In this document: piece by piece, positions 3,515 to 20,575 of the stretch | Position numbering within the stretch: the stretch's first letter is position 1 | How the letters are laid out: every line of letters starts with the position of its first letter | IMG/VR virus record: IMGVR_UViG_3300033998_000355 | Coordinates: 1-22,100 of that record | Length of the DNA: 22,100 nt | Source: a virus | Direction: 5' to 3' (one strand) | Notes under the pieces: generated by a model | What the model was told of the DNA's origin: nothing | Seen by the model: the letters and a program-made list of their open reading frames with translations, nothing else | The model's database searches: none | Translations under genes and position numbers: made by a program

Positions 3515-3520
3515 TTCAAA

Positions 3521-3548
3521 ATAAAAGCCCCCGCATTATGCGGAGGCT
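3521..3548 (-). terminator. Rho-independent terminator after the small-gene cluster
   Basis: On the minus strand a GC-rich 10-bp stem (AGCCTCCGCA with TGCGGGGGCT, loop TAA) is followed by TTTTAT. It separates the 96-aa gene from the chaperone promoter. Confidence 0.8.
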
Positions 3549-3580
3549 GCGCTGGTCAAATACAAACATATTCAGTTGTG

Positions 3581-4191: not shown

Positions 4192-4210
4192 AATGTCACC
4201 TCCAGCAATT

Positions 4211-4441: not shown

Positions 4442-4452
4442 GTTCGCACCTC

Positions 4453-6138
4453 CTAAATTCCACTTTTTGCACTTCTTGGTGGTTTCTGTTCAGGTAATTG
4501 CTGTGGTTCTATCATTTGATCTGGTTGTTGTTGTACCTGCTGCATGTTCATCGGTGGTGTTATTTGCATCATTCCTATTTGATTTGTTAATGGTCCCAAA
4601 CCCATGTTTTCTTGTACTATATTCAACTCTTGATTTGGCATTGAAGCTGCTTGTGCTTCTGCTTGTGCCTTAGCTTGTGCTATTATTTGCTCTTTCTGAA
4701 TTTCACTGTTGTTCTTTGCTTCTTGTTTAATTTGTTCTATTTCTCTATCATAATCAAGTTCAAATTCTTTTAATAATGTTTTCATTGATATAGCAGACAT
4801 TTGTGCTAAGTTTAACATCATTTGTTTTCTTTGTAGATCATCAGCCATTTTGAATGATCTTAATTTAACTTTTACCTTAGGAATATTCAAAATCAGAGAT
4901 ATCTTTTGAACTATTCTTTCAAGCAATTCTTCTAAACGCTCTCTGTAATTTAAGAAGTGATTTTCTAACATTCTTAATGATACAGAACTACCACTCCAAG
5001 TTAAACCACCTTTTATAAATTCTTGTGGAACTTGTAGAGATTGAATTATTTGTGTATTTGCAAAATCTAATTCACCAAACATATTTAATGTTTTGCCTTC
5101 TCCTGATAATGTACCAACTTGAAGTGGCACAGGGAATATTTGTACGTTATTTGGATTAAGTTTCCATGCAGTTAATGCTTCAGTTACCTTTTGTCGCCAT
5201 TGCCTTATATCAAAAGCCATAGGTGACCCTTCTGTTAATAATTCAGTTGGTGGGAATACAAATCTATATGGTATCATTCTTTCTCTTAAAATAGTATCTT
5301 GTGTTTTTTGTAAAAGTAAATAATGATGAGCATCTAAGAATGTATGAATTAACCAAGGTAATCCCCAACCTTTAAATAATCCAGATGGAGATACTCTTTG
5401 GAAGATAATTACATTTGATTTATTCAATTTAACTGAACGTGAACCTTTCATTATTGCTGTTAAAATAGGTTCAGGCGTTGTTTCAAGTAAGAACGGATCT
5501 TTTTTTACTCTGGATATAAAATTCTTGTTTATTGCTACATAATATTCTGCTTGATCTGCATATTCATTGTAATTTATCTCTATATCATGTGGATTCCAGA
5601 TTTGCAAGCGGAAATTAGTATTTTTTAAACTAATATCCTTAATTTCAAGTGGTTCACTTATATTATCTTCTCTAATCCACAGTTCATTCCCTTCAAATGA
5701 CCAATTTGGACCTCTATTAGTAATTTGTAATTTATATTCTTTACCCGTTCTTTTCCCTATAAACTTTCTTTCATAAGGTGTAACTACAGAAGCAAATGCA
5801 TTTCCATATACAAAATAATCAAAACCAAGTTTGAACATACGCTTAGTTATTTCCATTTTATCAATTAAAATTTCGCGATATGTTTGTTCTAATTTTGGAT
5901 CATTTGTTTCAATCATTATTTCAGTTAATGCATATTCAACGAGTTTTTCTATACCGGAAGCAATAGTACCATTTACTGCATACAAAAACTCAGAAAAATG
6001 GAAAATATCTTTTATATTATTTGTTAATGTAGCGGTATCTAAATTAATAATTTTATTGATAAATTCCTTAACAGAATTTGTAGAAGGTAATTTATAAATA
6101 GTCATTTCATAGTCTGAATAGAAGGGTGTTGTTGACAT
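4453..6138 (-). CDS. Portal protein
   Basis: This 561-aa product has the size and texture of a phage portal, the dodecameric ring at the capsid vertex through which DNA is packaged. Visible signs are an N-terminal helical region with MFKLGFDYFVYGNAFASVV (about 101-119), a central region with ERMIPYRFVFPP, and a helical crown region LENHFLNYRERLEELLERI with QVPQEFIKGG just before it. The last 80 residues are Gln/Met/Pro-rich and probably disordered (NMQQVQQQPDQ). The start ATG follows GGGGTG and is 5 nt from the preceding stop, implying coupling. It lies after sheath and tube, the T4 18-19-20 order. I recognise it from composition and motifs rather than from an alignment. Confidence 0.75.
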   Translation of the reverse strand: MSTTPFYSDYEMTIYKLPSTNSVKEFINKIINLDTATLTNNIKDIFHFSEFLYAVNGTIASGIEKLVEYALTEIMIETNDPKLEQTYREILIDKMEITKRMFKLGFDYFVYGNAFASVVTPYERKFIGKRTGKEYKLQITNRGPNWSFEGNELWIREDNISEPLEIKDISLKNTNFRLQIWNPHDIEINYNEYADQAEYYVAINKNFISRVKKDPFLLETTPEPILTAIMKGSRSVKLNKSNVIIFQRVSPSGLFKGWGLPWLIHTFLDAHHYLLLQKTQDTILRERMIPYRFVFPPTELLTEGSPMAFDIRQWRQKVTEALTAWKLNPNNVQIFPVPLQVGTLSGEGKTLNMFGELDFANTQIIQSLQVPQEFIKGGLTWSGSSVSLRMLENHFLNYRERLEELLERIVQKISLILNIPKVKVKLRSFKMADDLQRKQMMLNLAQMSAISMKTLLKEFELDYDREIEQIKQEAKNNSEIQKEQIIAQAKAQAEAQAASMPNQELNIVQENMGLGPLTNQIGMMQITPPMNMQQVQQQPDQMIEPQQLPEQKPPRSAKSGI

Positions 6139-6143
6139 TTATT

Positions 6144-6797
6144 TCACCCCTTAATCCTAAATTCTCTGCGTATCTGTTGATTGTATTCTGCAGAGTAGCC
6201 GTAATCTTTTAAAAAGCTAGAAATAATATTTAAACGATTAGCTTGTGCTTCAATTAAATTTTTAGAAAGTGATGGAACTACGATATCACTAAATGTCTTT
6301 TCTTTTACTTCAAGCGCATTTAAAATAGCATCAACTTGATTTGTTGGACCATTCCAAAAAGGGATAAGAACGGAATGAGGTGCGGCATAGCCATAATGTT
6401 TATGCCATGTTACAGTTACATACGTTTTTACCTCATCGGATAATAATTTCAATTTATTTTTAAAATCTCTATATATTATCCATGCTGTAAAAGCTAATTC
6501 TATTTCTGATGGTGGTTCAATTACCTCAGGAGAAAACACACCATCTAACACAGCACTAGCTACCTTTTCAAATACATGCCAATGCTTATATGGTAACTCA
6601 GAATTACCCAAAGCCCAATATGCTCTTATTTTATCGATTACTGTTGGGTGTAAATTAATACCTAATTTAGCAAGTAAGCCCAAAGCAGTATCAACACCAT
6701 CAGTTTCTACTTTGGTGTAGTAAATACTTATTTTATTATCAATCTCTTGAATAATCTGCTTTGGATCAGCTAAGCTCTGCTGAGTTAAAATATCCAT
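6144..6797 (-). CDS. Unknown protein preceding the portal gene, 217 aa
   Basis: A clean ORF with AAGGAGG before the ATG and a candidate promoter 33 bp further upstream. It is mainly helical with an aromatic-rich centre (VTVTWHKHYGYAAPHS, about residues 127-142) and a basic C terminus (QQIRREFRIKG). No signal peptide, membrane segment or known motif is apparent. Tight spacing to the portal gene (5 nt) suggests a role in head or portal assembly. This is a guess from context. Confidence 0.7.
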   Translation of the reverse strand: MDILTQQSLADPKQIIQEIDNKISIYYTKVETDGVDTALGLLAKLGINLHPTVIDKIRAYWALGNSELPYKHWHVFEKVASAVLDGVFSPEVIEPPSEIELAFTAWIIYRDFKNKLKLLSDEVKTYVTVTWHKHYGYAAPHSVLIPFWNGPTNQVDAILNALEVKEKTFSDIVVPSLSKNLIEAQANRLNIISSFLKDYGYSAEYNQQIRREFRIKG

Positions 6798-6829
6798 ATT
6801 ATTTCCTCCTTAATTATTTTTTCGACTTT

Positions 6830-6858
6830 ATTGTATCACTAACTCTTATTTATGTCGG
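6830..6858 (-). promoter_or_regulatory. Putative sigma70-type promoter before the portal operon
   Basis: On the minus strand CCGACA (6858-6853), a 17-bp spacer, then TACAAT (6835-6830). It lies in the 68-bp gap between the 350-aa gene and the 217-aa gene, the largest gap in this stretch. Confidence 0.45.
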
Positions 6859-6865
6859 GCGTCTT

Positions 6866-7918
6866 TCAGAGGTTAAGTAAATCACTTGCTACTTTAGTAA
6901 CGAAATCTTTTACTTCTCTTGGTGGCTCTTTTTCAAATTTAATTGGTTCTTCTATTTTATTGGTTTTATTAAATAGATAAGAAGCTGTTTTATTCAAACC
7001 AGAAACAATTTCTTCAGGTGTACCTAAAACATTCCAATATTTATCTACACCTGCATCTTTATCTATTTTCTCTATTGTTTTTGCTACAGCAGTTGGATCA
7101 TATTTTTCTGCTACTGAAGCAATTTTTTCATATACAGGGATAAATTTCTTTGGTGCATATTTTTCTCTTAATGCAATTGCTTTATAGAAATCTCTATCAA
7201 TTTGTTCTGATGCATATTTGTTTAATGCATTATCAGGTGCAATGTTTATACCATATTGTTTTGCTTTTTGCTTTATCTTTCTTGCTAATTGACTTCTATA
7301 TTGAGGTGGTATTTTATTTTCGTGCATATTAAAGAATGTAATAGCGGCTCTAACGTGATTTTCATCATGCATAGGATATTTTCTTATTTTTCTTCCTGAT
7401 TTAGTTTTAATAACCAAACCGAAAGCTGAATCAGGAAGGCTTTCTCTTTGTTGAGCTGTTAATTTAGCTGCTTTTTTCTCTAATTTTGGTTGTGGTACTG
7501 GTTCTTTAATAAACATGGTATTAATTACTACAGGACCTTCTGGTAATTCCATAGGACCATATTGCGCTAATTTTCTTAATGGTTGAATATAACTTAATTT
7601 ATTATGGATATTATTTTCAATAAGAGCTTGATTAATTTTAGCTGCTACTTCTGGTACATATTTTTGTGGAATGTACTTAGCGGTTTTAGTAAAATACCAA
7701 GCTGAAACAGCAGCATCTAATGGATTATCTATTCTATATTTGAATTGAGCACCTTTAGGAGTAATATATGCAACTGCATACTCCCTCTCGGTTTCTGCAG
7801 CTGCTTGTTTAACCATGTCTGGTGTTCTTAATTCTCGTGGTAATAGATTTATATCAAACCCCAATCTATTATCTTTATCATCATATTGATCGAATATTTT
7901 ACCAGCAATTGAATACAT
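6866..7918 (-). CDS. Virion-associated protein with internal duplication, 350 aa
   Basis: The start at 7918 (MYSIAGKIFDQYDD) follows AAAGGAGGCG; a longer frame starting at 7969 overlaps the upstream gene and lacks a ribosome binding site. The protein contains two related segments: residues about 59-104 (FKYRIDNPLDAA ... YIPQKYVPEVAAKI) and about 179-225 (RKYPMHDENHVRAA ... KIPPQYRSQLARKI). The second segment (LPDSAFGLV ... YPMHDENH) resembles a short domain that recurs in phage structural or hypothetical proteins; I cannot name it securely. The rest is charged and helical. It lies between the tube-like and portal genes, so a neck, head or adaptor role is possible. Confidence 0.65.
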   Translation of the reverse strand: MYSIAGKIFDQYDDKDNRLGFDINLLPRELRTPDMVKQAAAETEREYAVAYITPKGAQFKYRIDNPLDAAVSAWYFTKTAKYIPQKYVPEVAAKINQALIENNIHNKLSYIQPLRKLAQYGPMELPEGPVVINTMFIKEPVPQPKLEKKAAKLTAQQRESLPDSAFGLVIKTKSGRKIRKYPMHDENHVRAAITFFNMHENKIPPQYRSQLARKIKQKAKQYGINIAPDNALNKYASEQIDRDFYKAIALREKYAPKKFIPVYEKIASVAEKYDPTAVAKTIEKIDKDAGVDKYWNVLGTPEEIVSGLNKTASYLFNKTNKIEEPIKFEKEPPREVKDFVTKVASDLLNL

Positions 7919-7932
7919 TTTATTCGCCTCCT

Positions 7933-8361
7933 TTATTTTTCGGAGCTTTCTTCCTCGTAATAACCACATTCGAAGACTACGTTTTCGTATATTGCAAGAT
8001 CACCAACATTAGCTGAAGAACCATAATTAGATAAAACGCACATATGGTATACTTTATCATCTATTCTTATATTCACATATTCATCTGTATAAAGTTTACC
8101 TAAGCCCATTAAGCCTGCAATTTGAATTACGTTAGTTCCTGGTCCTACCAAAATTTTTGATTTAGGCTTAGCGTTAAGTAAGAAAGTTCTTTGAGACATA
8201 ATATTTTCTTGAACAGAAACATTAACAGCGGCGTAATCTTCATATTCAGATGCGGTACCATCTTCATTTATTTTTGCTATCTGAATAACAGTTTCATCAC
8301 TAGCTTTAACTAAATTTTTTGGAAGCACTCCGTTTTTTATTAAATCATTAATATTAGCCAT
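7933..8361 (-). CDS. Small virion protein, possibly second tube-like subunit, 142 aa
   Basis: The ATG follows GAGGAGGCG. The 142-aa product is strand-rich (KSKILVGPGTNVIQIAGL, VNIRIDDKVYHMCVL) with an acidic tail (EEESSEK), similar in size to the tube-like protein encoded immediately before it. Tail-tube and related baseplate-tube proteins share this size and beta-rich composition, so a paralogous tube or tube-initiator subunit is possible. The assignment rests on position and composition only. Confidence 0.55.
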   Translation of the reverse strand: MANINDLIKNGVLPKNLVKASDETVIQIAKINEDGTASEYEDYAAVNVSVQENIMSQRTFLLNAKPKSKILVGPGTNVIQIAGLMGLGKLYTDEYVNIRIDDKVYHMCVLSNYGSSANVGDLAIYENVVFECGYYEEESSEK

Positions 8362-8388
8362 TATATCGCCTCCTCATAGCAAATAACT

Positions 8389-8826
8389 TTATTTATCCAT
8401 AGAATTTTCAATTACACCATCTTCACATTCAAGTGAGAAATCGTCATAAATAAGAACTGTTCCTGCTTGAACTGCTTTTGCTTTACTAATAACGTAGCAA
8501 CCTGTAAATGATGCTACTCTTTCATTATTTAAAGAATAAATAGATATCTCAGGAATATATTGTTTCAATTCAAATTTAGGCAAAGAAGCAGTTGCTTCTG
8601 TTTCTTTTAAACTTACATTTCTAAGCGATAGTGTATATGCAGGATAAGCTGCAAATGGGGTATTATTTGCTGTTCCAAGAGCCATTAATCTATCTGTTTG
8701 CTTTGCTACGTTATATGATATCGATTGAATGAATGCATCAACTGGTTCTGATGTTTCAGTAAGTTTTATTTTAGCTTTCACATCGGAATAAGAAGCTATT
8801 TTGGTTCCACTAATTTCTTTAGACAT
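8389..8826 (-). CDS. Tail tube-like protein, 145 aa
   Basis: The 145-aa product is encoded directly after the sheath gene, the usual place for the inner tube subunit of contractile tails, and has the expected size (T4 gp19 is about 163 aa). It is beta-rich, with QSISYNVAKQTDRLMALG (residues about 34-51) and a C-terminal half matching a two-sheet fold pattern (EISIYSLNNERVASFTG). The ATG follows CAGGAGGTG. A hairpin separates it from the sheath gene, which may adjust the high tube expression. I infer function from order and size. Confidence 0.55.
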   Translation of the reverse strand: MSKEISGTKIASYSDVKAKIKLTETSEPVDAFIQSISYNVAKQTDRLMALGTANNTPFAAYPAYTLSLRNVSLKETEATASLPKFELKQYIPEISIYSLNNERVASFTGCYVISKAKAVQAGTVLIYDDFSLECEDGVIENSMDK

Positions 8827-8862
8827 TTATACGCACCTCCTGATAGATTTAATATAGAGTAA

Positions 8863-8880
8863 CGGCCCACAATGGGGCCG
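8863..8880 (-). other. Intergenic stem-loop between sheath and tube genes
   Basis: CGGCCC and GGGCCG form a 6-bp GC-only stem around CATTGT on the minus strand. It is not followed by a T run, so it is more likely a processing, stability or attenuation element than a full terminator. Confidence 0.5.
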
Positions 8881-8885
8881 AATAA

Positions 8886-10580
8886 TTAAACTTGTGCTCC
8901 AGCTACGACTTTTAAATCGACGTAATTTAATGGGAAGACTATTTGAAGTCTTACATTAGCAATTAATGTGTCTGGTGATTCTTCAGAAACAACTAATTCA
9001 ACAAGTCTTGTATTATTACCAACTATTCCAGCTATCTTAAAGAGTTCTAGTTTCTTTTCAATTGCTGGTTTAATAACGTTATTTATATTATCTTCTGTAA
9101 GAACTATTCTTGCTACAAAGTCCTTTAATGTTGATTTTAAAGAGTTAGATACATAATCAACGCTTCTTATAATACTATCTTCTAATGTAGCTACGTCCAA
9201 GTTAGCAGTTGTAATTTGATGTCTAACTTTGATCTTATCATCTTCATCTTTATAAAGTATCCAATATCCCATAGCCGCAATTTCATTAAGATCCATTTCA
9301 CTGAAGTAATATCTCAAGAAATTTGGATAGATTATATCGTTAAATACAGGAACTTCAGTTTCAGTTAATATTTCAGATGGTTTACCTGTGAGTTCATTCA
9401 TTAAACCAGCAACTTGTCCTGCATAGAATGCACCGTACATGTATCCTGGAACGGGATAATTGAGTCCGTTGTAGTTAATTCTAAATGCAGGGTTCATACA
9501 TATTCTTAATCTCTTTTCTTCTAATGGAGCAATTATATTATTTAAATATGTCTTGACAGCTGATTTATCGTTTGTATTTGTTCCAAATGCACTTTCAATA
9601 TTTTTAAATCCGAGCATTGCAACTCTAAATTGCCTCATATAGTTTTCAGAATATGCTTCATTAATTGCTTGAATAGTTGAATTAATTACTGTTGGATTAG
9701 CTGCATCGGCAAGTGGAGCTAATGCATAAACATTTGGGCTGACTCCAACTCTTAAAATTGCATCAGTTAATGCATCTGTATCTGGCTCTAATGGATCAAT
9801 TGCAGATTGTTTAATTGGTGTTGCAATTACAGGGAGCAATCCACCATTTGCTATAAAAGCTAAATAAGCACCAAATGCTAATCTGTTCATTGGATGTATT
9901 TTACCCAATACATCCTCAATCTGTGAAATACTTGAAACTTTTTGTGGATAACCAAGAATTGGGTTATCTTCAGTTGGATATGCGACAAATTCAATAAAGA
10001 CTCTTACATAATCAAATCCTTTAGGGATACTATAATCAACTGTTGTTGTTGATCCGGTATCAGGATCGGTTATTGTTTCGCTAACAGTTTCAAATACGAT
10101 ATTTGGTGATGCTTGAATTAACGACATTTCGTCGTTTGTAAATTTGATTTCTTCTGGTATATAAACTGTTTGTCTACCATCTTCTACACATGTAATTGTA
10201 TTAGAATCTACAGTTACTGTTTTTGTTTTAAGCCACTCGGTAATATCGATGTAATCTGCTGGGATAGTATATTTTAATCCGAAGTCTTCGTATACTTTCT
10301 TAGATACAGATTTAATATTCATACTTGTTCCGCTGGTTGGAATAATAAAGACTCTCAACGTAGAATAATCAATTGCAAAATGTTCTTTAACAGGTAGTGC
10401 GTAACTTGTAAAACTACCAGCAGTTAATTTTCTGGCTCTAATACCAAAATAAGCATCTTCTCCTTCTACAACTTGAGCTATAGTCCCAAACAATGCAGGG
10501 AGATAATTTTCAATGTTTCTAGCTGGTTTTACACTTGCAAGATATTCTTGAGTTACATATACACCAGGTTTTCTATACAT
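8886..10580 (-). CDS. Contractile tail sheath protein
   Basis: A 564-aa protein beginning MYRKPGVYVTQEY, the typical PGVYV-type N-terminal strand of tail sheath subunits, which exchange strands with neighbours in the contractile sheath. The C-terminal ~110 residues (TANLDVATLEDSIIRSVDYV ... FVARIVLTEDNI ... VRLQIVFPLNYVDLKVVAG) follow the conserved sheath domain pattern, ending in alternating hydrophobic strands. Size is normal for the family. The ATG follows GGAGGTG. The tube-like gene follows 60 bp later. This is the clearest functional call in the left half. Confidence 0.85.
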   Translation of the reverse strand: MYRKPGVYVTQEYLASVKPARNIENYLPALFGTIAQVVEGEDAYFGIRARKLTAGSFTSYALPVKEHFAIDYSTLRVFIIPTSGTSMNIKSVSKKVYEDFGLKYTIPADYIDITEWLKTKTVTVDSNTITCVEDGRQTVYIPEEIKFTNDEMSLIQASPNIVFETVSETITDPDTGSTTTVDYSIPKGFDYVRVFIEFVAYPTEDNPILGYPQKVSSISQIEDVLGKIHPMNRLAFGAYLAFIANGGLLPVIATPIKQSAIDPLEPDTDALTDAILRVGVSPNVYALAPLADAANPTVINSTIQAINEAYSENYMRQFRVAMLGFKNIESAFGTNTNDKSAVKTYLNNIIAPLEEKRLRICMNPAFRINYNGLNYPVPGYMYGAFYAGQVAGLMNELTGKPSEILTETEVPVFNDIIYPNFLRYYFSEMDLNEIAAMGYWILYKDEDDKIKVRHQITTANLDVATLEDSIIRSVDYVSNSLKSTLKDFVARIVLTEDNINNVIKPAIEKKLELFKIAGIVGNNTRLVELVVSEESPDTLIANVRLQIVFPLNYVDLKVVAGAQV

Positions 10581-10605
10581 TTTTTTACACCTCCATAACT
10601 AAGAA

Positions 10606-11238
10606 TTATTCTTTTTGGATATCTTCTTCAATTGTTGTAGATTCAGGCTCCGTTTCTATTGCTAAGTGTATTTTGTTCAATACAGGATCATCCTTAATTA
10701 ATGTTAATTGATGTTCATAAGAGAAAGACAAATTAAGCATAACATCGTAATTAGAGCTACCAATTGCACCACTTTCATCTGGTATTACTACTGTTGCAGA
10801 CATACCATCTACTTTTAACTCATTAAATCCAAATTGTTTAAAGAATGGTCTATGAACTAAGAGCAGAGACATTAATGCCGTGGCTAATCTATGTGCAAAA
10901 ATTTCATTTTGACTAATCACGTGTATTAATGCTGTACCACCAAACATAAAAATGTGTAATCCTTTAAAATACCTTTCTGAATGTCCCACATTAGGAAATG
11001 CAGGAGATATATTATTAATTGTACCCACATCTATTACTATTGTCGTTTTAGTCATTTTTGTTAGCAATGGATTATTATACACAGGTACTACTTCGACGTC
11101 ATCACCTAATTTAAGGTCTGTATATTCTTCTATAAAATACTTAATTGTTTCCATCAAACTAAGGGTTAATAGCTCATATATAGAATAAACTTCATTATTA
11201 CCTGTTAATTCTTTTATTACGACCTTATGTTCTTCCAT
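10606..11238 (-). CDS. Tail terminator/completion-like protein, 210 aa
   Basis: I chose the ATG at 11238 (MEEHKVVIKELTG) because AGAGGTGG precedes it; an upstream GTG at 11277 adds 13 residues but has no ribosome binding site. The 210-aa product lies immediately upstream of the sheath gene, where contractile-tailed phages often encode the tail terminator or completion protein. Visible segments are IFAHRLATALMSLLLVHRPF (about 113-132) and a strand-rich part SSNYDVMLNLSFSYEHQL. The acidic C terminus (TIEEDIQKE) looks disordered. It is the first gene of the leftward virion operon. Function is inferred from position. Confidence 0.5.
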   Translation of the reverse strand: MEEHKVVIKELTGNNEVYSIYELLTLSLMETIKYFIEEYTDLKLGDDVEVVPVYNNPLLTKMTKTTIVIDVGTINNISPAFPNVGHSERYFKGLHIFMFGGTALIHVISQNEIFAHRLATALMSLLLVHRPFFKQFGFNELKVDGMSATVVIPDESGAIGSSNYDVMLNLSFSYEHQLTLIKDDPVLNKIHLAIETEPESTTIEEDIQKE

Positions 11239-11324
11239 ATAATCCACCTCTACCTTCAACGAATTCCTTCCAATCACTTAAAATATTAACACGGTGAATA
11301 TTTGACGTTGAAAGGTGTGGGAAA

Positions 11325-11879
11325 GTGGATTTCGTAGATATACTTCCAATAACAAACAGGATAAAAGCAATAAGTTTTGAGAGCATTAATGTTCCTGACG
11401 GTGTGGGTTATTTAATTTTTTGGAGTGGAAATAATGAAGTTTTAATTCCGGAATTATCAAGGAGGATAAGAGAGAACCTACGCGCAATTTTAATTAATGC
11501 AGGTTGGAGCGAAAGGACAATAGATAGGATAGTAAACAACTTAAAGGTAGCTATTCAAAGGAATGGTATATTAGTTTCAATTACAGATAAAATATTTAAA
11601 GCGCAGGAGTTAGGTGTAAAACCAAGATACATGACACACTTAGTTGGTAAGACCGTGCCAATAGAAACACCTTTCGGTGTAATATTTAGAAAGGTAACAT
11701 TTGAAAGCATACGAAAAGGTAGTTGGTTTAACAGAGGAATTGAACCAAATTATTATCTTAGGCAAGCACTTGAAGAAGTCTTGCCTGATATTGAAATGTC
11801 TATTGCAGAACAATCAAGATATCTCTTTGAAGAGCTTCACGAATTACTAAACCGTATGATGGCTGGGGAGTCCCGGTGA
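11325..11879 (+). CDS. Putative head-tail or neck virion protein, 184 aa, rightward
   Basis: The frame starts with GTG at 11325 after AAAGGTGTGGG and encodes 184 aa. The segment GKTVPIETPFGVIFRKVTFE followed by IRKGSWFNRGI (residues about 108-139) resembles a pattern I associate with phage head-tail joining or tail-completion proteins (HK97 gp10-like), but I cannot confirm it. It is the only gene on the plus strand within the first 15.6 kb, starting 86 bp from the divergent tail operon. Its end overlaps the replication gene tail-to-tail by 33 bp. No clear promoter was identified. Confidence 0.6.
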   Translation: MDFVDILPITNRIKAISFESINVPDGVGYLIFWSGNNEVLIPELSRRIRENLRAILINAGWSERTIDRIVNNLKVAIQRNGILVSITDKIFKAQELGVKPRYMTHLVGKTVPIETPFGVIFRKVTFESIRKGSWFNRGIEPNYYLRQALEEVLPDIEMSIAEQSRYLFEELHELLNRMMAGESR

Positions 11880-13868
11880 AGCTAAAGGCCGAGCTGTATT
11901 TAATTTTTCTAAAAGTTTGAAGTTTGACCACTTAACTAACGAGTGAATTTTTACACCGTTTGATGGACAAATTTCTTTGTTTTCTTTTACAACAATTGTT
12001 CTCTCTGGGTGGACTATTTTAATTATTCCACATTTTGTTCTGATTAATTTTCCTGCCAATCTAAATTGTCTAATTCTTGCTTTTTTCATTTCAAGTGCGC
12101 GTTTTCTAAGTCTTCTCTTTATTTCTTCGTTTCTTTCCTTAATCAAATTCTGTAATACTTCTTCTGGTATTTTTGCACCGAGAAATTCTGTCATGAGTCT
12201 ATATGCGACCTCTTCTAAGTTTGATTCATTAAAACCTAAAGTATATACATGAGCAGATTTTTTTGTTCCGTGTATGCGTTTTTTTCCAGTTATCTTTAAG
12301 AAACCTGATTTCACAATTACTTCACGCATAATGTATTTAATAGTACCTGCTGGTATACTTTCAACGATTTTATGTGCGTATTCAGCTGTAAATATATCCT
12401 CTACATTGGTTGAATACATTAAGTTATATCTATAAGCTTCAATTATCTTCATTACTTTATGATACTTAGATAAAATTGGCTTTTTAGTTGCTGAATCGTA
12501 AAGCTTCTTCATTGTAGCAATGAATTTATCAATTAATCTAACTTTTTCGATAATTTTTGGAAGGTTAATCGCAAGTCGAGCAAGCATAAATCTATATACA
12601 ACCATGAATAAACCGTCACCGCGTTTCATTGGTAAATCTATACCTAATGCCTGAGAGGCTATTGCTTCCATTAATGTTCTTGTAGATTTTAATGCATAAC
12701 TGTGAAAATCTTTTATTATATAAACTCCTCTAGCTTCAATAAAATAAATTACAGCAGATGATTTTCTTTCTTTGTGGAAAGGACAAAGGATATTCTGCTT
12801 GTGTCTTACAGGAATTCCAAATATTTCTTCAAAAGCTTTTGCTTCAAATTCATAAAAGTCTAATTGTAAATCAGAAGTCTGTGCTTCTTTTCCTAATTGA
12901 ATTTGTGTTTTTATAATATTTGCCATCATAGTACTTGTTGTAAGTTTGTTGAACTGTTTTTCTAAGCCTAACTTTTTAAAGGCTTCTCTTGCTTCTTTTC
13001 TTGCTTTAGCTTTGTGTCTCCTTGCATTTATTTCTTCTTTCTTTAATTCTTTCTTTACAGGATCGCCTAACCCTTTTGCCCATGGTAAATGTTTTGGATT
13101 AATTGTTTTTATAATTTTATCGAAAGTGATAATAGGCCAACTTTTGACAAAATCGTCTGTCCAATCATCTATATAATTCGTATCATAAGAATAGATTTTA
13201 GACTTTGGATTAGTTGCTTCAATTAATTTCCATGCTTCCTTTACTGGTGTTTCAAATGTAATTTTTCCTTCTTTAAAGAGTTTTTTGAAGGTCATAAAAG
13301 CAGATCTATTTCCAACGAAAGAAAGAGGGAGCATACTTCTTCTCAAAAATTCTATTTTTAATACACGTTCTCTTTTTCTTTGACTTGCAAATGCGCTGCC
13401 TGTATTTGTCCCGATGATTTCATCTGCTTCTTTTAAGGTAAGATATCCGCTTTTAACCAAATATCTGAGTTTTAAGTAGCTTTGGGTATACAACCTAACA
13501 AAATCAGTGATTTCCATTAAATAAAAGAAATGAACCCCGGTTCTTGTAAGCATAATAACAGTCTCCCCGAGGTTATCTAAAATATAATTAATTATCTTAT
13601 CATCTTGTGTATCTTCTAAATCAATACAGACGGGAATTAGTTCTAATCCATCTTCGGTTTTGAAAGGCTTAAAGATAGCTTGTTCTCCGGTTGGATATCT
13701 CTTCTTATTTGGGTCTTTCGGGACAAAGTATTTTGCAAAGGAATGAGTAGGTCTTACTTCGAATGTTTTATTCTCTTTATTTTCTTCTATTTCTTTCCTT
13801 AATCTCTCTATTTTTGATAAATATGCCGCCATAGCTAATCCGTCACTTGGAGTCTTTAATTTCCTCAT
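11847..13868 (-). CDS. Primase-like replication protein
   Basis: The start at 13868 (MRKLKTPSDG) follows GGGGGTG; a TTG six codons upstream is less likely. The 673-aa product shows hints of two primase features: VCIDLED (about 80-86) and TRTGVHFFY (about 108-116), spaced like the acidic and histidine motifs of archaeo-eukaryotic-type primases, and a CPFHKERKSSAV segment (362-373) that matches the first half of the DnaG CHC2 zinc motif. The second Cys pair is absent (DFHSY at 387-391), so the zinc site is lost or altered. The middle is very basic (about 275-305) and the C-terminal part is helical and Lys/Arg-rich. A replication initiator is the main alternative. Confidence 0.5.
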   Translation of the reverse strand: MRKLKTPSDGLAMAAYLSKIERLRKEIEENKENKTFEVRPTHSFAKYFVPKDPNKKRYPTGEQAIFKPFKTEDGLELIPVCIDLEDTQDDKIINYILDNLGETVIMLTRTGVHFFYLMEITDFVRLYTQSYLKLRYLVKSGYLTLKEADEIIGTNTGSAFASQRKRERVLKIEFLRRSMLPLSFVGNRSAFMTFKKLFKEGKITFETPVKEAWKLIEATNPKSKIYSYDTNYIDDWTDDFVKSWPIITFDKIIKTINPKHLPWAKGLGDPVKKELKKEEINARRHKAKARKEAREAFKKLGLEKQFNKLTTSTMMANIIKTQIQLGKEAQTSDLQLDFYEFEAKAFEEIFGIPVRHKQNILCPFHKERKSSAVIYFIEARGVYIIKDFHSYALKSTRTLMEAIASQALGIDLPMKRGDGLFMVVYRFMLARLAINLPKIIEKVRLIDKFIATMKKLYDSATKKPILSKYHKVMKIIEAYRYNLMYSTNVEDIFTAEYAHKIVESIPAGTIKYIMREVIVKSGFLKITGKKRIHGTKKSAHVYTLGFNESNLEEVAYRLMTEFLGAKIPEEVLQNLIKERNEEIKRRLRKRALEMKKARIRQFRLAGKLIRTKCGIIKIVHPERTIVVKENKEICPSNGVKIHSLVKWSNFKLLEKLNTARPLASPGLPSHHTV

Positions 13869-13886
13869 ATTTGAATTCACCCCCAA

Positions 13887-14006
13887 TTAATCGTCTTTTT
13901 CTAAAATCTCTTTTGCTTTCTTCTCTGCTTCTTCTCTTGTCATATCTGGATTCTTGGCTAATAATTCTTTAATTAATTCCTCTAATTCAATACCGTACTT
14001 TTCCAT
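13887..14006 (-). CDS. Small ORF, 39 aa, upstream of the primase-like gene
   Basis: ATG at 14006 follows GAAGGTGAT, and the frame encodes a charged helical peptide (MEKYGIELEELIKELLAKNP ... ending LEKDD). An extended -10 promoter lies just upstream. The stop is 18 nt before the primase-like start, so the two are probably co-transcribed. A leader or coupling peptide or small regulator is possible; no family recognised. Confidence 0.6.
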   Translation of the reverse strand: MEKYGIELEELIKELLAKNPDMTREEAEKKAKEILEKDD

Positions 14007-14025
14007 ACTATCACCTTCAGCAAAT

Positions 14026-14054
14026 ATTATACCATAACCCTGAAATATGAACAA
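14026..14054 (-). promoter_or_regulatory. Promoter for the 39-aa ORF and primase-like gene
   Basis: On the minus strand TTGTTC (14054-14049), 17-bp spacer, then TATAAT (14031-14026) preceded by TGG, an extended -10 element. The -35 box is weak. It sits at the very end of the upstream membrane-protein gene. Confidence 0.55.
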
Positions 14055-14480
14055 TTACTTTCCAAACAGCCAAAAAACACCGAAAGTTACACCAATTACA
14101 CCTGTTAAAGCACCTAAAAGATATGAAATCAAAATTTGATTCAAAATTTTCTCCTTTGTTTTTGATAATTCCAAGCTTAATTCTTCATTTTTTATTTGAG
14201 TTTCTTCTAATAAATTTTTCAACTCAAATATTGTATCGCTTGCCTCTTTTAATGTAGTTTCTAGTTTGTTCATATAATTTGATAAAGTTAAAAATTCGTC
14301 CTCAGTTAGAATTACTATTGTTCCTTCCTGGGTTAGACTTATTTTCATTGAGAATACTTTCGATGTGTTTAAAAGCAGCATCAAAATCAATACCATTATT
14401 AAGACTACTGTTCTTGTCCAATGTTTCTTTGATTTTATTGAGCACTTTGTTTGCTTTCTGAATAGACTCTTTAAACTCAT
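14055..14480 (-). CDS. Membrane protein with coiled coil, 141 aa, overlapping the upstream gene
   Basis: The ATG at 14480 is preceded by AAGGAGG about 10 nt away, located inside the coding sequence of the 92-aa gene. The product has a basic N terminus, a hydrophobic segment at about 24-37 (TVVLIMVLILMLLL) that may be a signal anchor or signal peptide, a coiled-coil-like region at about 65-112 (KLETTLKEASDTIFELKNLL), and a C-terminal hydrophobic segment at about 118-140 (YLLGALTGVIGVTFGVFWLF). A shorter start at residue 45 (MKISLTQEG) would leave a coiled coil plus one membrane helix, like XhlA-type proteins. A lysis accessory (spanin or holin partner) is possible but unproven. Confidence 0.6.
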   Translation of the reverse strand: MSLKSLFRKQTKCSIKSKKHWTRTVVLIMVLILMLLLNTSKVFSMKISLTQEGTIVILTEDEFLTLSNYMNKLETTLKEASDTIFELKNLLEETQIKNEELSLELSKTKEKILNQILISYLLGALTGVIGVTFGVFWLFGK

Positions 14481-14580
14481 TAGTATTCAACCTCCTTATA
14501 GAAGATTTTGTTATAAGCCATACTTGTACTAAACTCACAATTAAATTTGCAATAACAATAGCAAGAATAGCAATTTCCAT
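14302..14580 (-). CDS. Small membrane protein, 92 aa, overlapping the next gene
   Basis: ATG at 14580 (MEIAILAIVIANLIVSLVQV) follows GGGGGTGAT; a longer start at 14610 has no ribosome binding site. Residues about 2-22 form one membrane helix, followed by a charged helical domain and an Asn/Ser-rich end (NPGRNNSNSN). Its last 179 nt are shared out of frame with the 141-aa membrane protein. The nested arrangement recalls Rz/Rz1 spanin pairs, but no lipobox is visible in either product. Confidence 0.6.
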   Translation of the reverse strand: MEIAILAIVIANLIVSLVQVWLITKSSIRRLNTNEFKESIQKANKVLNKIKETLDKNSSLNNGIDFDAAFKHIESILNENKSNPGRNNSNSN

Positions 14581-14720
14581 AATAATCACCCCCGAATAGT
14601 ATTCTAACATGTAAAAAACTTTCCTGTAGTAGAGCTCTTTTTTTCCTCAATTACATAGTAACAACTTTTGAAAAATCAAAATTACGAATTTATGCGGGGT
14701 TGTAGGGTGCTTTTCCTTAC

Positions 14721-15163
14721 TATTATATTATAGGAATATATCTTTATGGTAGCTTATTGTGTTGTTTCATATGTATCTAATCTGTTTAAAGATTTCCACG
14801 TTGATTGATAACCTAATATGAGTAAACTAAAGCGAAAAGTCTAACACAAAAATATAAAGCTAAGAAAGATTAAAGAAAGTTTTAGCTATGAAGCGAACGA
14901 AGTGAGCGAAATAGCTAAAACGTTAATCTTGTTGACTTACGTCAACAAGATACAACAAAAACACTCATTAGACAACTAACGTACATTTAGGTTAAAGCCA
15001 TACATAGGAAAAAAGTATTTTAAGCCTAATATGAATTAAAAACCTAATATAGGATCAATAACCGTATATGGTAAAACACATTCAAGTCAAAAACAATAAT
15101 TCTTTAAGTACATATCAGGAACAAATTTACAAAAACAGAAATACAACATTTAAGCATGTATGT
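14721..15163 (+). repeat. Long imperfect direct repeat, copy A
   Basis: About 440 bp, non-coding. It begins TATTATATTATAGGAATATA and ends near AAGCATGTATGT, and recurs as copy B from 15181. The most conserved core is 14812-15055. It contains the two-helix RNA element, CCTAATAT boxes, and AGGTTAAAGCCATACATA. The 14,600-15,690 gap holds no plausible gene on either strand. Confidence 0.85.
14866..14949 (+). ncRNA. Structured RNA element, copy A (two adjacent helices)
   Basis: An outer helix AAGATTAA:TTAATCTT (14866-14873 with 14923-14930) encloses GTTTTAGCTA:TAGCTAAAAC (14879-14888 with 14912-14921). A second hairpin follows, CTTGTTGAC:GTCAACAAG with loop TTAC (14928-14949), sharing CTT with the first. 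No T run follows, so it is not a simple terminator. Copy B changes one outer base pair from T-A to C-G, supporting a real RNA structure. Whether it is transcribed is unknown, and orientation is assumed from the downstream rightward genes. Confidence 0.55.
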
Positions 15164-15180
15164 TTAACACTTTTTCTTAC

Positions 15181-15598
15181 TATTATATTATAGGAATATA
15201 CCCTCATAGCAACCTAATGTGTGTGTTTTATTTTCATATTTTAAAACTAACCTAAACAAGTTACTAACTTGATATAGGTTCTAACACATATGAGTCATTA
15301 CCTAATATGAGTGAACTAAAGCGAAAAGTCTAACACAAAATATAAAGCTAAAAAAGATCAAAGAAAGTTTTAGCTATGAAGCGAACGAAGTGAGCGAAAT
15401 AGCTAAAACGTTGATCTTGTTGACGCAAGTCAACAAGATACAACAAAAACACTCATAAGTAAAACTAACGTACATTTAGGTTAAAGCCATACATATAGGT
15501 TAAAGCCATACATAGGAGAAAAACACTTTAAGCCTAATATGAACTAAAAACCTAATATAGAATCAAAAGCGTAATGCCATATAAGCTAAGCATGTATG
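15181..15598 (+). repeat. Long imperfect direct repeat, copy B
   Basis: Second copy of the ~440-bp non-coding unit, ending just before the promoter region of the 221-aa gene. Relative to copy A it carries a local tandem duplication of TAGGTTAAAGCCATACATA near 15475-15513 and a diverged 15201-15300 segment. The core from 15301 is nearly identical to copy A. Confidence 0.85.
15354..15437 (+). ncRNA. Structured RNA element, copy B (two adjacent helices)
   Basis: Same fold as copy A. The outer helix is AAGATCAA:TTGATCTT (15354-15361 with 15411-15418), where one T-A pair of copy A is replaced by C-G. The inner helix GTTTTAGCTA:TAGCTAAAAC (15367-15376 with 15400-15409) is unchanged. The second hairpin (15416-15437) keeps its 9-bp stem but has a GCAA (GNRA-type) loop instead of TTAC. 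Confidence 0.55.
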
Positions 15599-15645
15599 TC
15601 TAAAATTTGAGCAAGATTTTTTCTCCTAAAAACTTTCCAATAGTG

Positions 15646-15651
15646 TATAAT
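15646..15651 (+). promoter_or_regulatory. -10 element upstream of the 221-aa gene
   Basis: A perfect TATAAT lies 38 bp upstream of the start codon; no convincing -35 box at 16-18 bp spacing was found, so activation or an alternative sigma factor is possible. Confidence 0.4.
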
Positions 15652-15689
15652 ATAAGTGTACTTAATCCGAAAACTTTGGAGGTGTTAAT

Positions 15690-16355
15690 ATGGTATTAAA
15701 GGCACATATTATTCACGAAGACACAGATTTACATGATGAGATTTGTGATTTAGTGAATTATGAGCTATTTGAATTTGATTTTGATGTATTATCAAAGGAT
15801 TTTATGGATTTTGTACCGGATATATACACTGATTTCGATGGAGTTACTGTTGAATGCCGTTGCACGACGGAAAGAACGCTCGAAAAAGCATACAAATTCT
15901 TTACCGATAACATTTCTAAAAAGCTACCTGTAGGTTCAATTATGCTGATTATTAGTACAAACGAAAAGATGCCACCGCACACTAAATTTGGAATGTATAA
16001 AGTTGTGGACGAAGGTAAAGTTGAAGGCAATGATGTTGTAATAAACTTAAATGACATCAAAGAAGCTCTGAAAGAGAAAGCAAGTAAAAACAAGAAAAAG
16101 TTAGCACCAGCGGCGCTAAATAGCCTTTCAAATGAAATTGATTTATTCTTATTTAATGCTTTCCCAGAAGATATAATTCCACACAATGTAGATGAGTACG
16201 AGAATGCACAAGAGCTAATTAAGAGTATAATGGATAAGTTAGTTGATGTTTGTGTTGAAAATCCATCGGAAGTAATCAAGTTTGGTTTGGAGGGCTTTTT
16301 GATGATTATAAGAGACGAAAAGATACGTGAGATGGAAGAAGACGACGAGTGGTGA
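15690..16355 (+). CDS. Acidic protein of unknown function, 221 aa
   Basis: The ATG follows TTTGGAGGTG. The product is very acidic (ends EEDDEW) with an N-terminal region rich in Asp and Phe (FEFDFDVLSKDFMDFVPDIY), a strand segment (VTVECRCTTERT, with two Cys), and a helical C-terminal half. No membrane segment, signal peptide or known catalytic motif seen. It is the first gene of the rightward accessory region, just downstream of the repeat/control region, which suits an early-expressed phage protein. Function not recognised. Confidence 0.7.
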   Translation: MVLKAHIIHEDTDLHDEICDLVNYELFEFDFDVLSKDFMDFVPDIYTDFDGVTVECRCTTERTLEKAYKFFTDNISKKLPVGSIMLIISTNEKMPPHTKFGMYKVVDEGKVEGNDVVINLNDIKEALKEKASKNKKKLAPAALNSLSNEIDLFLFNAFPEDIIPHNVDEYENAQELIKSIMDKLVDVCVENPSEVIKFGLEGFLMIIRDEKIREMEEDDEW

Positions 16356-16424
16356 TAAGGAGTGATTCATCTATGGTGAGAATACAAGGTATCTTTGTTA
16401 ACAGGAGTGGTGCACAATATGTGC

Positions 16425-16674
16425 GTCAACTACCCACCACCTATAGAGGTGGAGGCTTGCAAAAGCCTTAGTTGACTACCCTCAGCCAGGGGAAGTTAAT
16501 CTTCCTATCGGGCTACGTTAGACTGGTCATGACACCCTGGGATGCTGCTCAAGTTCCAGGCTCTGTCGTATGTACCTAAACAGTCCTGAGGGGTAGGGAC
16601 AGTGGTACGTACATAACAAGCCAGTCTAACATTGGGGATGAGCACCTAACTCTTTCAAAGGAGGCTTACCGCAT
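16425..16674 (+). ncRNA. IscB-associated omega RNA (HEARO-type)
   Basis: The region directly upstream of the IscB fragment has the hallmarks of a HEARO/omega RNA: an outer helix GTCAACTA:TAGTTGAC (16425-16432 with 16469-16476) enclosing two hairpins, CCACCT-ATAG-AGGTGG and AGGCTT-GCAA-AAGCCT, followed by CAGCCAGGGG, ATCGGGCTACGTTA and long-range pairing segments up to the IscB ribosome binding site. The second copy near 19956 shows compensatory changes. Omega RNAs guide IscB nucleases using a spacer from the flank at their 5' end. The scaffold looks intact although the protein is not. Confidence 0.75.
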
Positions 16675-16995
16675 ATGGTATATGTTATTTCAAAGGATGG
16701 TAAACCATTAATGCCAACAAAAAGGCATGGTAAAGTTAGAAGACTTTTAAAACAAGGTCTTGCTAAAGTTGTTAGAAGAGAACCATTTACAATTCAGTTG
16801 TTGTATGACACAACGACATATACACAACCTGTTACAGTTGGTGTAGACATTGGTTCAAAAACAGTTGGTATTTCAGCAATAACAAACAAACAAGAATTGT
16901 TCAGTGCTGAAGTTGAACTTAGACAAGATATCAGAAAGTTGCTGCTGAAGAGAAGAGAATACAGAAGTTTTAGAAGATATCGCAAGAGAAGATAG
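16675..16995 (+). pseudogene. iscB: IscB N-terminal fragment (PLMP, RuvC-I and arginine-rich bridge)
   Basis: The ATG follows AAAGGAGG. The 106-aa frame begins MVYVISKDGKPLMPTKRHGK, containing the PLMP motif (residues 11-14) and downstream basic residues typical of IscB. VGVDIGSKTVGIS (55-67) is RuvC-I with catalytic Asp58. Residues 84-106 form an Arg-rich bridge helix (LLLKRREYRSFRRYRKRR), where the frame stops. Intact IscB is usually 400-500 aa, with HNH and RuvC-II/III domains that are missing here, so it cannot be an active nuclease by itself. It is truncated exactly where a left-end-type hairpin begins, suggesting an insertion/deletion event. RNA binding by the remnant is conceivable. 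Confidence 0.85.
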
Positions 16996-17000
16996 GGAAC

Positions 17001-17053
17001 AGCGCATTCCTCTCCATCTTAAAGAAGATGGAGTCTCCTGCGCTGGCTTATAA
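17001..17053 (-). mobile_element. Left-end-type hairpin of the TnpB-family element
   Basis: On the minus strand TTAT is followed by a hairpin (outer AGCGCA:TGCGCT, inner CTCCATCTT:AAGATGGAG) and the box GAGACTCC. It matches the left ends at 19700 and 20586-20633 in layout. It abuts the IscB truncation point. Confidence 0.55.
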
Positions 17054-17332: not shown

Positions 17333-17422
17333 ATTGGCAAAAAAATTGATTTTTTTTGTTATATATTGTTTGAAAACAAAGTTATTTAATTAATTACCAA
17401 AAAAAGGGGGCGAGAAAGAGGA

Positions 17423-17638
17423 ATAGTAATAGTCGAACCATTAGCCCCAAATACAGCTGCAGTGAACTACCATGACTTCTATAAGTCATGGCTTCCTGCT
17501 TCAACCAGTGATGGCTCGTAGACCCCTTTCGGGTTCCGCCGCCAGAGCACTGTCCACAGGCGTAAATACGGAGTCTTCTTTGCGTTTTATTCGATAAAAT
17601 TCCATCTATCAGAGTTATTCATAAAGGTAGAAATATAG
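17423..17638 (+). pseudogene. Possible small ORF split by the 132-bp MITE
   Basis: Removing 17462-17593 rejoins an open frame from ATA at 17423 (IVIVEPLAPNTAA) to IKFHLSELFIKVEI and TAG at 17638. It lies between an AAAGGGGG motif and a terminator, as the other cassettes here do. There is no ATG/GTG/TTG start, so a mutated start codon would be needed, and a second joined frame is also open. Weakly supported. Confidence 0.25.
17462..17593 (-). mobile_element. 132-bp MITE of the TnpB/IS605 family
   Basis: On the minus strand it reads TTAT (flank), CGAATAAAACGCAAAGAAG, then jumps at GACTCCG directly to the last ~105 bp of the element (from TTTACGCCTGTGGACAG to the terminal hairpin and GTTCAC). 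It is an internal-deletion version of the 253-bp copy at 19700-19952 in inverted orientation. It carries no protein gene but retains most of the presumed guide RNA scaffold. Confidence 0.75.
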
Positions 17639-18047: not shown

Positions 18048-18080
18048 AGATGTCCAAAAAAACGTCCTTTTTTCGTTATA

Positions 18081-18086
18081 TATAAT
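18081..18086 (+). promoter_or_regulatory. -10 element of the hairpin-rich gene
   Basis: TATAAT within TTTTTTCGTTATATATAATG, 54 bp before the start codon; no matching -35 box. A similar string, TTTTTTGTTATATATTG, lies near 17352-17368 upstream of the split ORF. Confidence 0.4.
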
Positions 18087-18139
18087 GTGAAATTTTTTAA
18101 TTCCAACACCTACCTTAAATTATAGAAGGAGGGGATTTT

Positions 18140-18640
18140 ATGTTAAAAAAAAATATGTTAAAAAAACATTTGGAAATCATAAAAAAATGGGATAGGCCTC
18201 TAAAACCAGAGGACCTAATCCCAAATCAAAAAAAAGAAAATTTCGATGCCGGCGATATATTCTTTTTAGCCGGCAAAGAAAGTTTTGTGTACTCAATGGT
18301 CATTGGTAAGTATGGTGATCTTTTCGAATGCATCATACTTGCCGACGACCCATTTTTGGTTCCATCTTCAGCTTTGAAGCTGAAGGTGGATCATTTTATC
18401 GACGAGGTCTACGTGACCTCGATATATATATACTTTCCAGAGAAGGTGTTAGACACCTTCGGATGGAAAGTATGCAAATTAAACTCAACATTGCTAGAAA
18501 AAATAAAAAGCAATGTTGAGACTTTAGAAGCATCGGACCATCTTCTTCACGGTCCGCGCAAGGCATACAACGACTTGTTGGTCAATAAAATAAAGTCGTT
18601 GTATGACTATTTCCTAAGTGAGATTTGTAAGGAGGACTGA
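18140..18640 (+). CDS. Unknown protein encoded by a hairpin-saturated gene, 166 aa
   Basis: The ATG follows GAAGGAGGGG. The N terminus is a short repeat (MLKKN MLKKH), so residue 6 is an alternative start. The protein looks globular: a basic helix, DAGDIFFLAGKESFVYSMVI (about 37-56), further strands (DEVYVTSIYIYFPEKV), and a helical C terminus (YNDLLVNKIKSLYDYFLSEI). No family recognised; the SH3-like GDIFFLAG start recalls PemK/MazF folds but without supporting residues. Nine stem-loops fill codons 17-155, and a tenth, the terminator, overlaps the stop codon. It is flanked by its own -10 element and terminator. It could be a phage anti-defence or host-takeover protein, but this is speculation. 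Confidence 0.75.
   Translation: MLKKNMLKKHLEIIKKWDRPLKPEDLIPNQKKENFDAGDIFFLAGKESFVYSMVIGKYGDLFECIILADDPFLVPSSALKLKVDHFIDEVYVTSIYIYFPEKVLDTFGWKVCKLNSTLLEKIKSNVETLEASDHLLHGPRKAYNDLLVNKIKSLYDYFLSEICKED
18189..18605 (+). other. Array of nine stem-loops inside the coding sequence
   Basis: Stems in order: GGGATAGGCCTCT with a two-bulge partner (18189-18222); TGCCGGC:GCCGGCA (18247-18275); AAGTATG:CATACTT (18308-18340); CCATCTTCAGC:GCTGAAGGTGG with one G.U pair (18362-18389); CGAGGTC:GACCTCG (18403-18421); ATACTTTCCA:TGGAAAGTAT enclosing GAAGGTGT:ACACCTTC (18430-18473); CTCAACATTGCT:AGCAATGTTGAG (18484-18520); CGGACC:GGTCCG (18534-18556); CATACAACGACTT:AAGTCGTTGTATG (18564-18605). Stem sequences are unrelated to each other, so they are not copies of one repeat. 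Confidence 0.8.
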
Positions 18641-18654
18641 GGTCCTCCTTTTTT
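18629..18654 (+). terminator. Terminator overlapping the stop codon of the 166-aa gene
   Basis: AAGGAGGAC:GTCCTCCTT stem with the TGA stop codon in the loop, followed by T4. It ends the hairpin array. Confidence 0.85.
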
Positions 18655-18668
18655 GTTTTTTGCTTTAT

Positions 18669-18709
18669 CGAGTGAACTACCATGACTTCTATAAGTCATG
18701 GTAGTTCAC
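18669..18709. mobile_element. Solo right-end palindrome of the TnpB-family element
   Basis: TTAT and CGA (left-end tip) are followed by a perfect 38-bp palindrome (18672-18709; 17-bp arms from GTGAACTACCATGACTT around CTAT) matching the terminal hairpin of the 19700-19952 and 17462-17593 elements. It is a minimal, REP-like remnant. Confidence 0.65.
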
Positions 18710-18740
18710 TAAAAATAACTAAAGGAGGAGAAAGTTAAGT

Positions 18741-19692: not shown

Positions 19693-19699
19693 AGCTTAT

Positions 19700-19952
19700 C
19701 GAATAAAACGCAAAGAAGACTCCGCCTTCTATAAGGTGGAGATGAATTTGCGATTTTTGTGGAGCACATCATGATAGAGATGTAAATACTGCTAAGAATC
19801 TAGCTAAGTATGGCTTAATACTATCAGTAGGGCGGGAACCGTCCGAATTTACGCCTGTGGACAGTGCTCTGGCGGCGGAACCCGAAAGGGGTCTACGAGC
19901 CATCACTGGTTGAAGCAGGAAGCCATGACTTATAGAAGTCATGGTAGTTCAC
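19700..19952 (+). mobile_element. 253-bp TnpB/IS605-family deletion derivative
   Basis: Flanked on the left by TTAT. The left end CGAATAAAACGCAAAGAAG carries a hairpin (CGCAAA:TTTGCG outside CTCCGCCTT:AAGGTGGAG). After ATTTGCG the sequence jumps to the last 54 codons of tnpB and the right-end hairpin CCATGACTT-ATAG-AAGTCATGG, ending GTAGTTCAC. No transposase. It is the longest of the family members in the window and the parent form of the 132-bp MITE. Confidence 0.75.
19749..19913 (+). pseudogene. tnpB: TnpB C-terminal fragment, 54 codons
   Basis: The frame reads CDFCGAHHDRDVNTAKNL, then ends GLRAITG and TGA. CxxC followed by HDRDVNTAKN is the last zinc-ribbon Cys pair and RuvC-III motif (catalytic Asp in DRDVN) of TnpB. 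The preceding ~300+ codons are deleted and no start codon is present, so no active RNA-guided nuclease can be made. The coding 3' end also overlaps the presumed guide RNA scaffold that extends into the right end. Confidence 0.8.
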
Positions 19953-20115: not shown

Positions 20116-20185
20116 CACGCCTTTTCAGTCCGGATCTGCCACCCGGGCAAATTAAAAAAATAAAACAAAACAAAAAGGAGGTGGG

Positions 20186-20219
20186 TGTCCTTCTCTGCGG
20201 TGGCAGGCGGAGAAGGACA
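20186..20219 (+). promoter_or_regulatory. Stem-loop between Shine-Dalgarno and start codon
   Basis: TGTCCTTCTC:GAGAAGGACA, a perfect 10-bp stem, lies between AAAGGAGG (20174-20181) and the ATG at 20227. Folding would bring the ribosome binding site close to the ATG, or, if GTG at 20185 is used, would sit at the 5' end of the coding region. Confidence 0.55.
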
Positions 20220-20226
20220 GAAGAGT

Positions 20227-20526
20227 ATGACAGAGAAAAAAAGGATTATTGCCACGGCAAAAAAGATCAGGAGACATGCAAAAGATACAAACATCAGAAT
20301 TTCCCTTCCTATTTCAATTAAAATTGCTAAGATGTTTTTAAGGAAGGGGAAATTCAGGGGAGGATTCGGCCTCAAAGATTTCGTGGAGGCTGGTTTGTCT
20401 CCTGATCAAGCCCGAATTCTGTGGTTACATTTCCTTGATTTTTACAACGATCCAGGTCTAGAGACCTGGTCGTTGAAGCCTCAATTTGTAAAAGATTTTT
20501 TCTCGGACTGTGTACGTAAGTTATGA
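20227..20526 (+). CDS. Small basic protein encoded within a multibranch RNA fold, 99 aa
   Basis: I take ATG at 20227 (MTEKKRIIATAKKIRRHAKD); GTG at 20185 is in frame, adds 14 residues and is nearer to AAAGGAGG, but at a short spacing. The protein is strongly basic in the first half (KIAKMFLRKGKFRGGFG) and helical with aromatic residues in the second (DQARILWLHFLDFYNDPG), which would suit a nucleic-acid-binding protein. No family recognised. Almost the whole coding sequence takes part in stems, including an 11-bp long-range helix, and the stop codon lies in the loop of a 12-bp hairpin. A terminator follows directly. Confidence 0.6.
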   Translation: MTEKKRIIATAKKIRRHAKDTNIRISLPISIKIAKMFLRKGKFRGGFGLKDFVEAGLSPDQARILWLHFLDFYNDPGLETWSLKPQFVKDFFSDCVRKL

Positions 20527-20537
20527 CAGTCCGAGAA
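20265..20537 (+). other. Multibranch RNA structure spanning the coding sequence
   Basis: GATCAGGAGAC (20265-20275) pairs perfectly with GTCTCCTGATC (20397-20407), 11 bp. Enclosed are GAATTTCCCTTCC paired with GGAAGGGGAAATTC (20297-20309 with 20342-20355, one bulge) and GCCTC:GAGGC (20369-20390). Outside follow CAACGA-CCAGGTCT:AGACCTGG-TCGTTG (20445-20475, one bulge) and TTCTCGGACTGT:ACAGTCCGAGAA (20500-20537) holding the stop codon. Confidence 0.75.
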
Positions 20538-20546
20538 TTCATAATT

Positions 20547-20575
20547 GCCCGGAACTTTCGCCCGGGCTTTTGTTT
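20547..20575 (+). terminator. Terminator after the 99-aa gene
   Basis: GCCCGG:CCGGGC stem followed by TTTTGTTTT. Confidence 0.75.

Follow-up and report, generated by a model that had tools for sequence, protein, structure and literature searches.

Nine consecutive hairpins in the coding sequence of a probable phage accessory gene related to CalpT-type proteins

The coding sequence of a 166-aa gene carried by a dsDNA phage is organised as a chain of consecutive local hairpins whose stability depends on the choice of synonymous codons, and its product is related at the profile level to a partner protein of type III CRISPR systems. The DNA analysed, hereafter the window, is the 22,100-bp IMG/VR virus record IMGVR_UViG_3300033998_000355 (positions 1-22,100; 33% GC), and portal and sheath matches in a profile search identify its phage as contractile-tailed. 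Window positions 1-11206 recur at 99.97% identity in another IMG/VR record (62.8 kb), which lacks the focal region. An IscB fragment of that record shows 78% identity to one from Thermoanaerobacter thermocopriae and the transposon end hairpins of the window have many matches at 90-98% in related genomes; these two similarities point to a thermophile of the Thermoanaerobacter lineage as the probable host. The CRISPR spacers of 37 genomes gave no convincing match to window positions 1-16400. The explanation favoured here, tentatively and with less than even confidence, is that of an accessory gene of a thermophilic phage, the messenger of which was selected at the RNA level to form hairpins and the product of which serves a CalpT-like counter-defence.

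The initial annotation had described ten consecutive stem-loops covering most of the gene, several of them perfect, and folding prediction recovers this arrangement. Nine hairpins run from codon 17 to the stop codon and are followed by a terminator hairpin that holds the stop codon (Table 1); together they cover approximately 74% of positions 18140-18654, and several stems of 10-13 bp are free of mismatches. The nine hairpins, which are predictions from one sequence, differ from one another in sequence, and a search of 18140-18654 against Rfam returned no known RNA family up to E 1. The folding energy is almost entirely local: restricting pairs to 80 nt retains -192 of -202 kcal/mol. Predicted pairing is lower in the first 50 nt of the frame than in the remainder, as expected if translation must start there.

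Table 1. Features of the focal gene and of the related elements around it (window positions).
Feature	Positions	Strand	Remarks
TnpB-derived element, short inverted copy lacking an internal segment	17461-17597	-	weak RAGATH-18 match
AT-rich promoter-like motif	18068-18088	+	putative promoter
RBS AGAAGGAGGGG	18124-18134	+	before ATG 18140; from sequence
Focal ORF, 166 aa, with nine-hairpin coding sequence	18140-18640	+	related to PADLOC Unk_02 and CRISPR-T (CalpT)
Hairpin 1	18188-18223	+	folding prediction
Hairpin 2 (core 18247-18275)	18235-18288	+	folding prediction
Hairpin 3 (stack of 15 pairs, G.U among them)	18298-18350	+	folding prediction
Hairpin 4	18357-18393	+	folding prediction
Hairpin 5	18403-18421	+	folding prediction
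Hairpin 6 (outer stem 10-11 bp, inner stem 8 bp)	18429-18474	+	folding prediction
Hairpin 7 (perfect 12 bp)	18484-18520	+	folding prediction
Hairpin 8	18530-18559	+	folding prediction
Hairpin 9 (core perfect 13 bp)	18562-18608	+	folding prediction
Intrinsic terminator, stop codon within loop	18629-18650	+	
TnpB-derived remnant, partner of 17461-17597	19696-19952	+	
Second ORF rich in hairpins (99 aa), preceded by a weak HEARO omega-RNA match	20227-20526	+	

The amount of structure is far beyond what the encoded protein imposes. Synonymous shuffles that hold the protein and the codon usage fixed fold at -112 ± 6 kcal/mol, against -183 kcal/mol for the native sequence (z -11.1 and -11.3), and the best among 100 of them is still 49 kcal/mol short of the native value. 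A far stricter context-preserving synonymous null gives z -6.4, and dinucleotide shuffles of 18110-18660 give z -13.0. Comparison with codon-shuffled versions was one of the checks that the initial annotation had asked for, and selection for structure on the synonymous sites of the gene withstands it, because the folding energy lies far outside the range of the shuffles. At 37 C the excess resides in helix stability more than in the paired fraction, which after nt 50 is 0.61 compared with 0.56 in shuffles. At 65 C all nine hairpins are kept in the prediction and the paired fraction is 0.52 in the native sequence versus 0.40 in shuffles, and at 75 C 49% of the bases are paired versus 33%, z remaining at about -10 up to this temperature. 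After nt 50, stretches of 36 nt with a mean accessibility above 0.6 are absent from the native sequence and make up 4.1% in shuffles, a modest difference.

This property is rare. Eighteen other gene segments of the window have synonymous-shuffle z values from -2.3 to +1.7, and the sole other outlier is the second hairpin-rich ORF, with z -5.7, or -6.6 when counted from a GTG at 20185. The same was seen in a screen of 240-nt coding segments (8,164 segments from 2,328 ORFs) that covered the window and 2.4 Mb of a genome of the Thermoanaerobacter class, in which the two focal segments ranked 1 and 4 and the second gene ranked 7. The two host entries between ranks 1 and 4 seem to be false ORFs, called over a terminator and over RNA-like sequence. 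Three host outliers near the top were inspected: in L100 the ORF is drawn too long and takes in a terminator, L141 is an ORF placed on RNA-like sequence, and L117 is a membrane-protein gene of the ordinary kind. With these ranks and the host outliers explained, strong coding hairpins are a habit of neither the phage nor thermophiles. This bears on the possibility, which we regard with some doubt, that the mRNA structure was selected for reasons apart from immunity, namely stability or slowed translation at 60-75 C in an acquired gene devoid of host-adapted regulation. The hairpins do persist at 65-75 C, where shuffled versions largely melt, and the gene is autonomous and has its own terminator. 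Nevertheless, the other phage genes and nearly all ORFs of the Thermoanaerobacter-class genome lack the property, so temperature alone does not explain it. Taken simply, a role in thermal stability is nearly as likely as one in immunity.

Genome-scale ordered RNA structure (GORS) is a feature of RNA viruses, and coding sequences under strong selection for RNA structure are, to our knowledge, known chiefly from such viruses. The focal gene resembles GORS in that the fold of its coding RNA is more stable than those of its synonymous shuffles. It differs in that the carrier is a dsDNA phage, in that the structure is a chain of short local hairpins, and in that one or two genes are involved instead of the whole genome, as the z values of the other window genes indicate. 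In this dsDNA phage, strong selection on coding-RNA structure is seen in individual accessory genes and amounts to about 11 standard deviations.

At the level of gene layout, the 18140-18640 frame is preceded closely by a good RBS and is backed by codon statistics, and each of the other frames holds between 5 and 16 stops. Its GC3 is 0.44 compared with approximately 0.2 in phage structural genes, which marks the gene as acquired. The first 15 positions of the promoter-like motif fit a pattern shared with 17351-17365; this TTTTTTNGTTATATA motif lies 5' of two small accessory genes (17351-17365 and 18068-18082) and is possibly a phage promoter, its chance occurrence being not rare once mismatches are permitted. 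A structured non-coding RNA in which the reading frame arose by chance would agree with the extreme structure and with the failure of Pfam, PHROGs and NCBIfam to match the 166-aa protein. This reading is barely credible given the RBS and the coding statistics, the lack of any Rfam match and a protein-family profile match at E 1.5e-18.

That match is to PADLOC Unk_02 (PDLC01140), a family with no described function, and aligns residues 27-163 with profile positions 21-145 of 252. PADLOC CRISPR-T (PDLC01048) is matched at E 2.1e-6, residues 24-156 aligning with positions 19-142 of 237. Either half of the protein alone matches Unk_02, and the reversed sequence gives no match. It has been reported that CRISPR-T is a 32-kDa protein cut by CRISPR-Lon (CalpL) upon cA4 binding, which yields a MazF-like N-terminal fragment of 23 kDa (PMC9704534), and that CalpT is an anti-sigma factor in the CalpL/T/S system of the thermophile Sulfurihydrogenibium (PMC11417357). 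The PADLOC profile CRISPR-T is read here as CalpT on the basis of the shared name. The phage protein is similar to these families over residues 24-163; it has 166 residues, whereas the profiles have 237-252 positions, and the matches stop at profile positions 142 of 237 (CRISPR-T) and 145 of 252 (Unk_02), so that the C-terminal fragment released by CalpL (the CalpT10 region) is missing. CalpT-type genes belong to type III loci, in contrast to the phage carrier, where a scan of the window ORFs recognised neither calpL nor calpS nor any cas gene. The phage product, encoded by a hairpin-rich gene, is best read as a relative of the N-terminal part of CalpT-type proteins devoid of their C-terminal region; membership in CalpT proper is not claimed, because the protein lacks the C-terminal part and its gene lacks the expected neighbours. 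As to a MazF-like fold, an AlphaFold single-sequence model is poor (pLDDT 37.5) and Pfam gives no match. Patterned scans of viral and genome contigs, one of them with a query widened by conservative variants, yielded no homologue, and neither did tblastn searches of phages and plasmids with a cut-off of E 10 or searches of 37 class-level and 398 phylum-level genomes. A lone match at E 0.007 in the latter genomes lies inside a 2,847-aa frame and was taken as chance; the Unk_02 and CRISPR-T profiles were silent there, but so were the controls.

Regarding the level at which selection acts, the coding strand exceeds the antisense in folding stability by 13.9 kcal/mol, compared with -0.8 ± 5.6 kcal/mol in shuffles, an asymmetry of about 2.3 standard deviations for the focal gene that is not significant for the second one. 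The initial annotation had argued for selection at the RNA level from a G.U pair and single bulges. The better folding of the coding strand speaks for that conclusion, while the strand-neutral mismatch count in the stems (G:T 3, A:C 1) is too small to contribute to it, and selection on RNA over DNA is moderately supported, favoured and not proven. It is decidedly improbable that the hairpins act in single-stranded DNA, for instance in IS200/IS605-type transposition or as hotspot insertion targets. Remnants of IscB and TnpB do abound at the locus, as do terminal hairpins; those end hairpins, however, are repeated sequences located outside the ORF, whereas the focal ones lie within it, are diverse in sequence and stop at the terminator of the gene, and the strand asymmetry in energy also argues against a DNA-level function. 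Mutation alone might also have produced perfect stems if repeated template switching during replication copied arm onto arm. One report (PMC8794818) describes template switching as a process that creates and maintains RNA hairpins, and several stems of the gene are perfect at 10-13 bp. This origin is improbable, as the protein is still recognisable as an Unk_02 relative from residue 27 to residue 163, a span that takes in almost all of the region bearing hairpins, only two genes are affected, the coding strand is favoured and the start region is spared.

According to the favoured explanation of RNA-level selection and counter-defence, selection on the coding-strand RNA would have shaped the synonymous sites into a local hairpin chain that stays folded at the growth temperature of the host, and ribosomes would still read the hairpin-packed message. 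The phage protein may interfere with the signalling branch of type III CRISPR immunity; for example, it might hold the CalpS sigma factor or another partner of CalpT while itself escaping cleavage by CalpL. As the product is a short CalpT-type relative, the gene would most likely function in counter-defence. The hairpins, for their part, would shield the mRNA from pairing with type III crRNAs, from cOA-activated single-strand RNases and from ordinary decay at high temperature. Of the roles proposed in the initial annotation, mRNA protection at high temperature and a decoy for a CRISPR-type effector may both apply, and the latter gained unexpected support because the protein matches a partner protein of type III CRISPR. 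A more specific version, in which the hairpins block RNA-guided or RNase-based immunity on the very message that disarms it, the product being CalpT-like and lacking the cleavable C-terminus, is unlikely. Hiding of MazF-type ACA sites was considered and rejected: the four sites all lie in paired positions, yet GCC and CCT show the same degree of shielding. If the hairpins do shield a counter-defence message, they would offer a way to escape type III CRISPR with no change in the protein, and a phage-borne CalpT-like protein would be added to what is known of CalpL/T/S.

The focal gene lies within a hotspot of IS200/IS605-type debris at ~16.4-20.7 kb. Its neighbours are IscB/HEARO and TnpB elements, yet it is outside any omega-RNA and its hairpins have no match among the element ends or the Rfam families. 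The TnpB-derived copies at 17461-17597 and 19696-19952 are 99-100% identical in their shared parts (99% over 111 nt) and bracket the gene as an inverted pair, like a composite element. At 16425-17045 a HEARO omega-RNA is accompanied by an iscB of which the first 106 codons (RRXRR) are left, joined to the right end of the element, and the stretch reads as an internally deleted IscB element. The second hairpin-rich ORF (region 20185-20570) occupies the position of iscB. Its 99-aa protein is predicted to be all-helical (pLDDT 74.8) and no relatives of it were found, with no significant match in a fold search and none in PADLOC. A hairpin of 10-13 bp at 20186-20219 would pair the likely RBS of this ORF. 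Just 3' of the focal gene, at 18671-18710, there is a perfect 18-bp stem with a 4-nt loop, an isolated copy of the element-end sequence AGTGAACTACCATGACTT. Further upstream, the C-terminal end of a 679-aa ORF (11847-13886) resembles the IscB C-terminus and its DNA is 81% identical over 11895-11958, suggesting that the ORF captured an IscB tail. The non-coding stretch at 14800-15570 contains two copies at a spacing of ~490 bp, which share 91-94% identity across long parts and each carry 11-bp hairpins.
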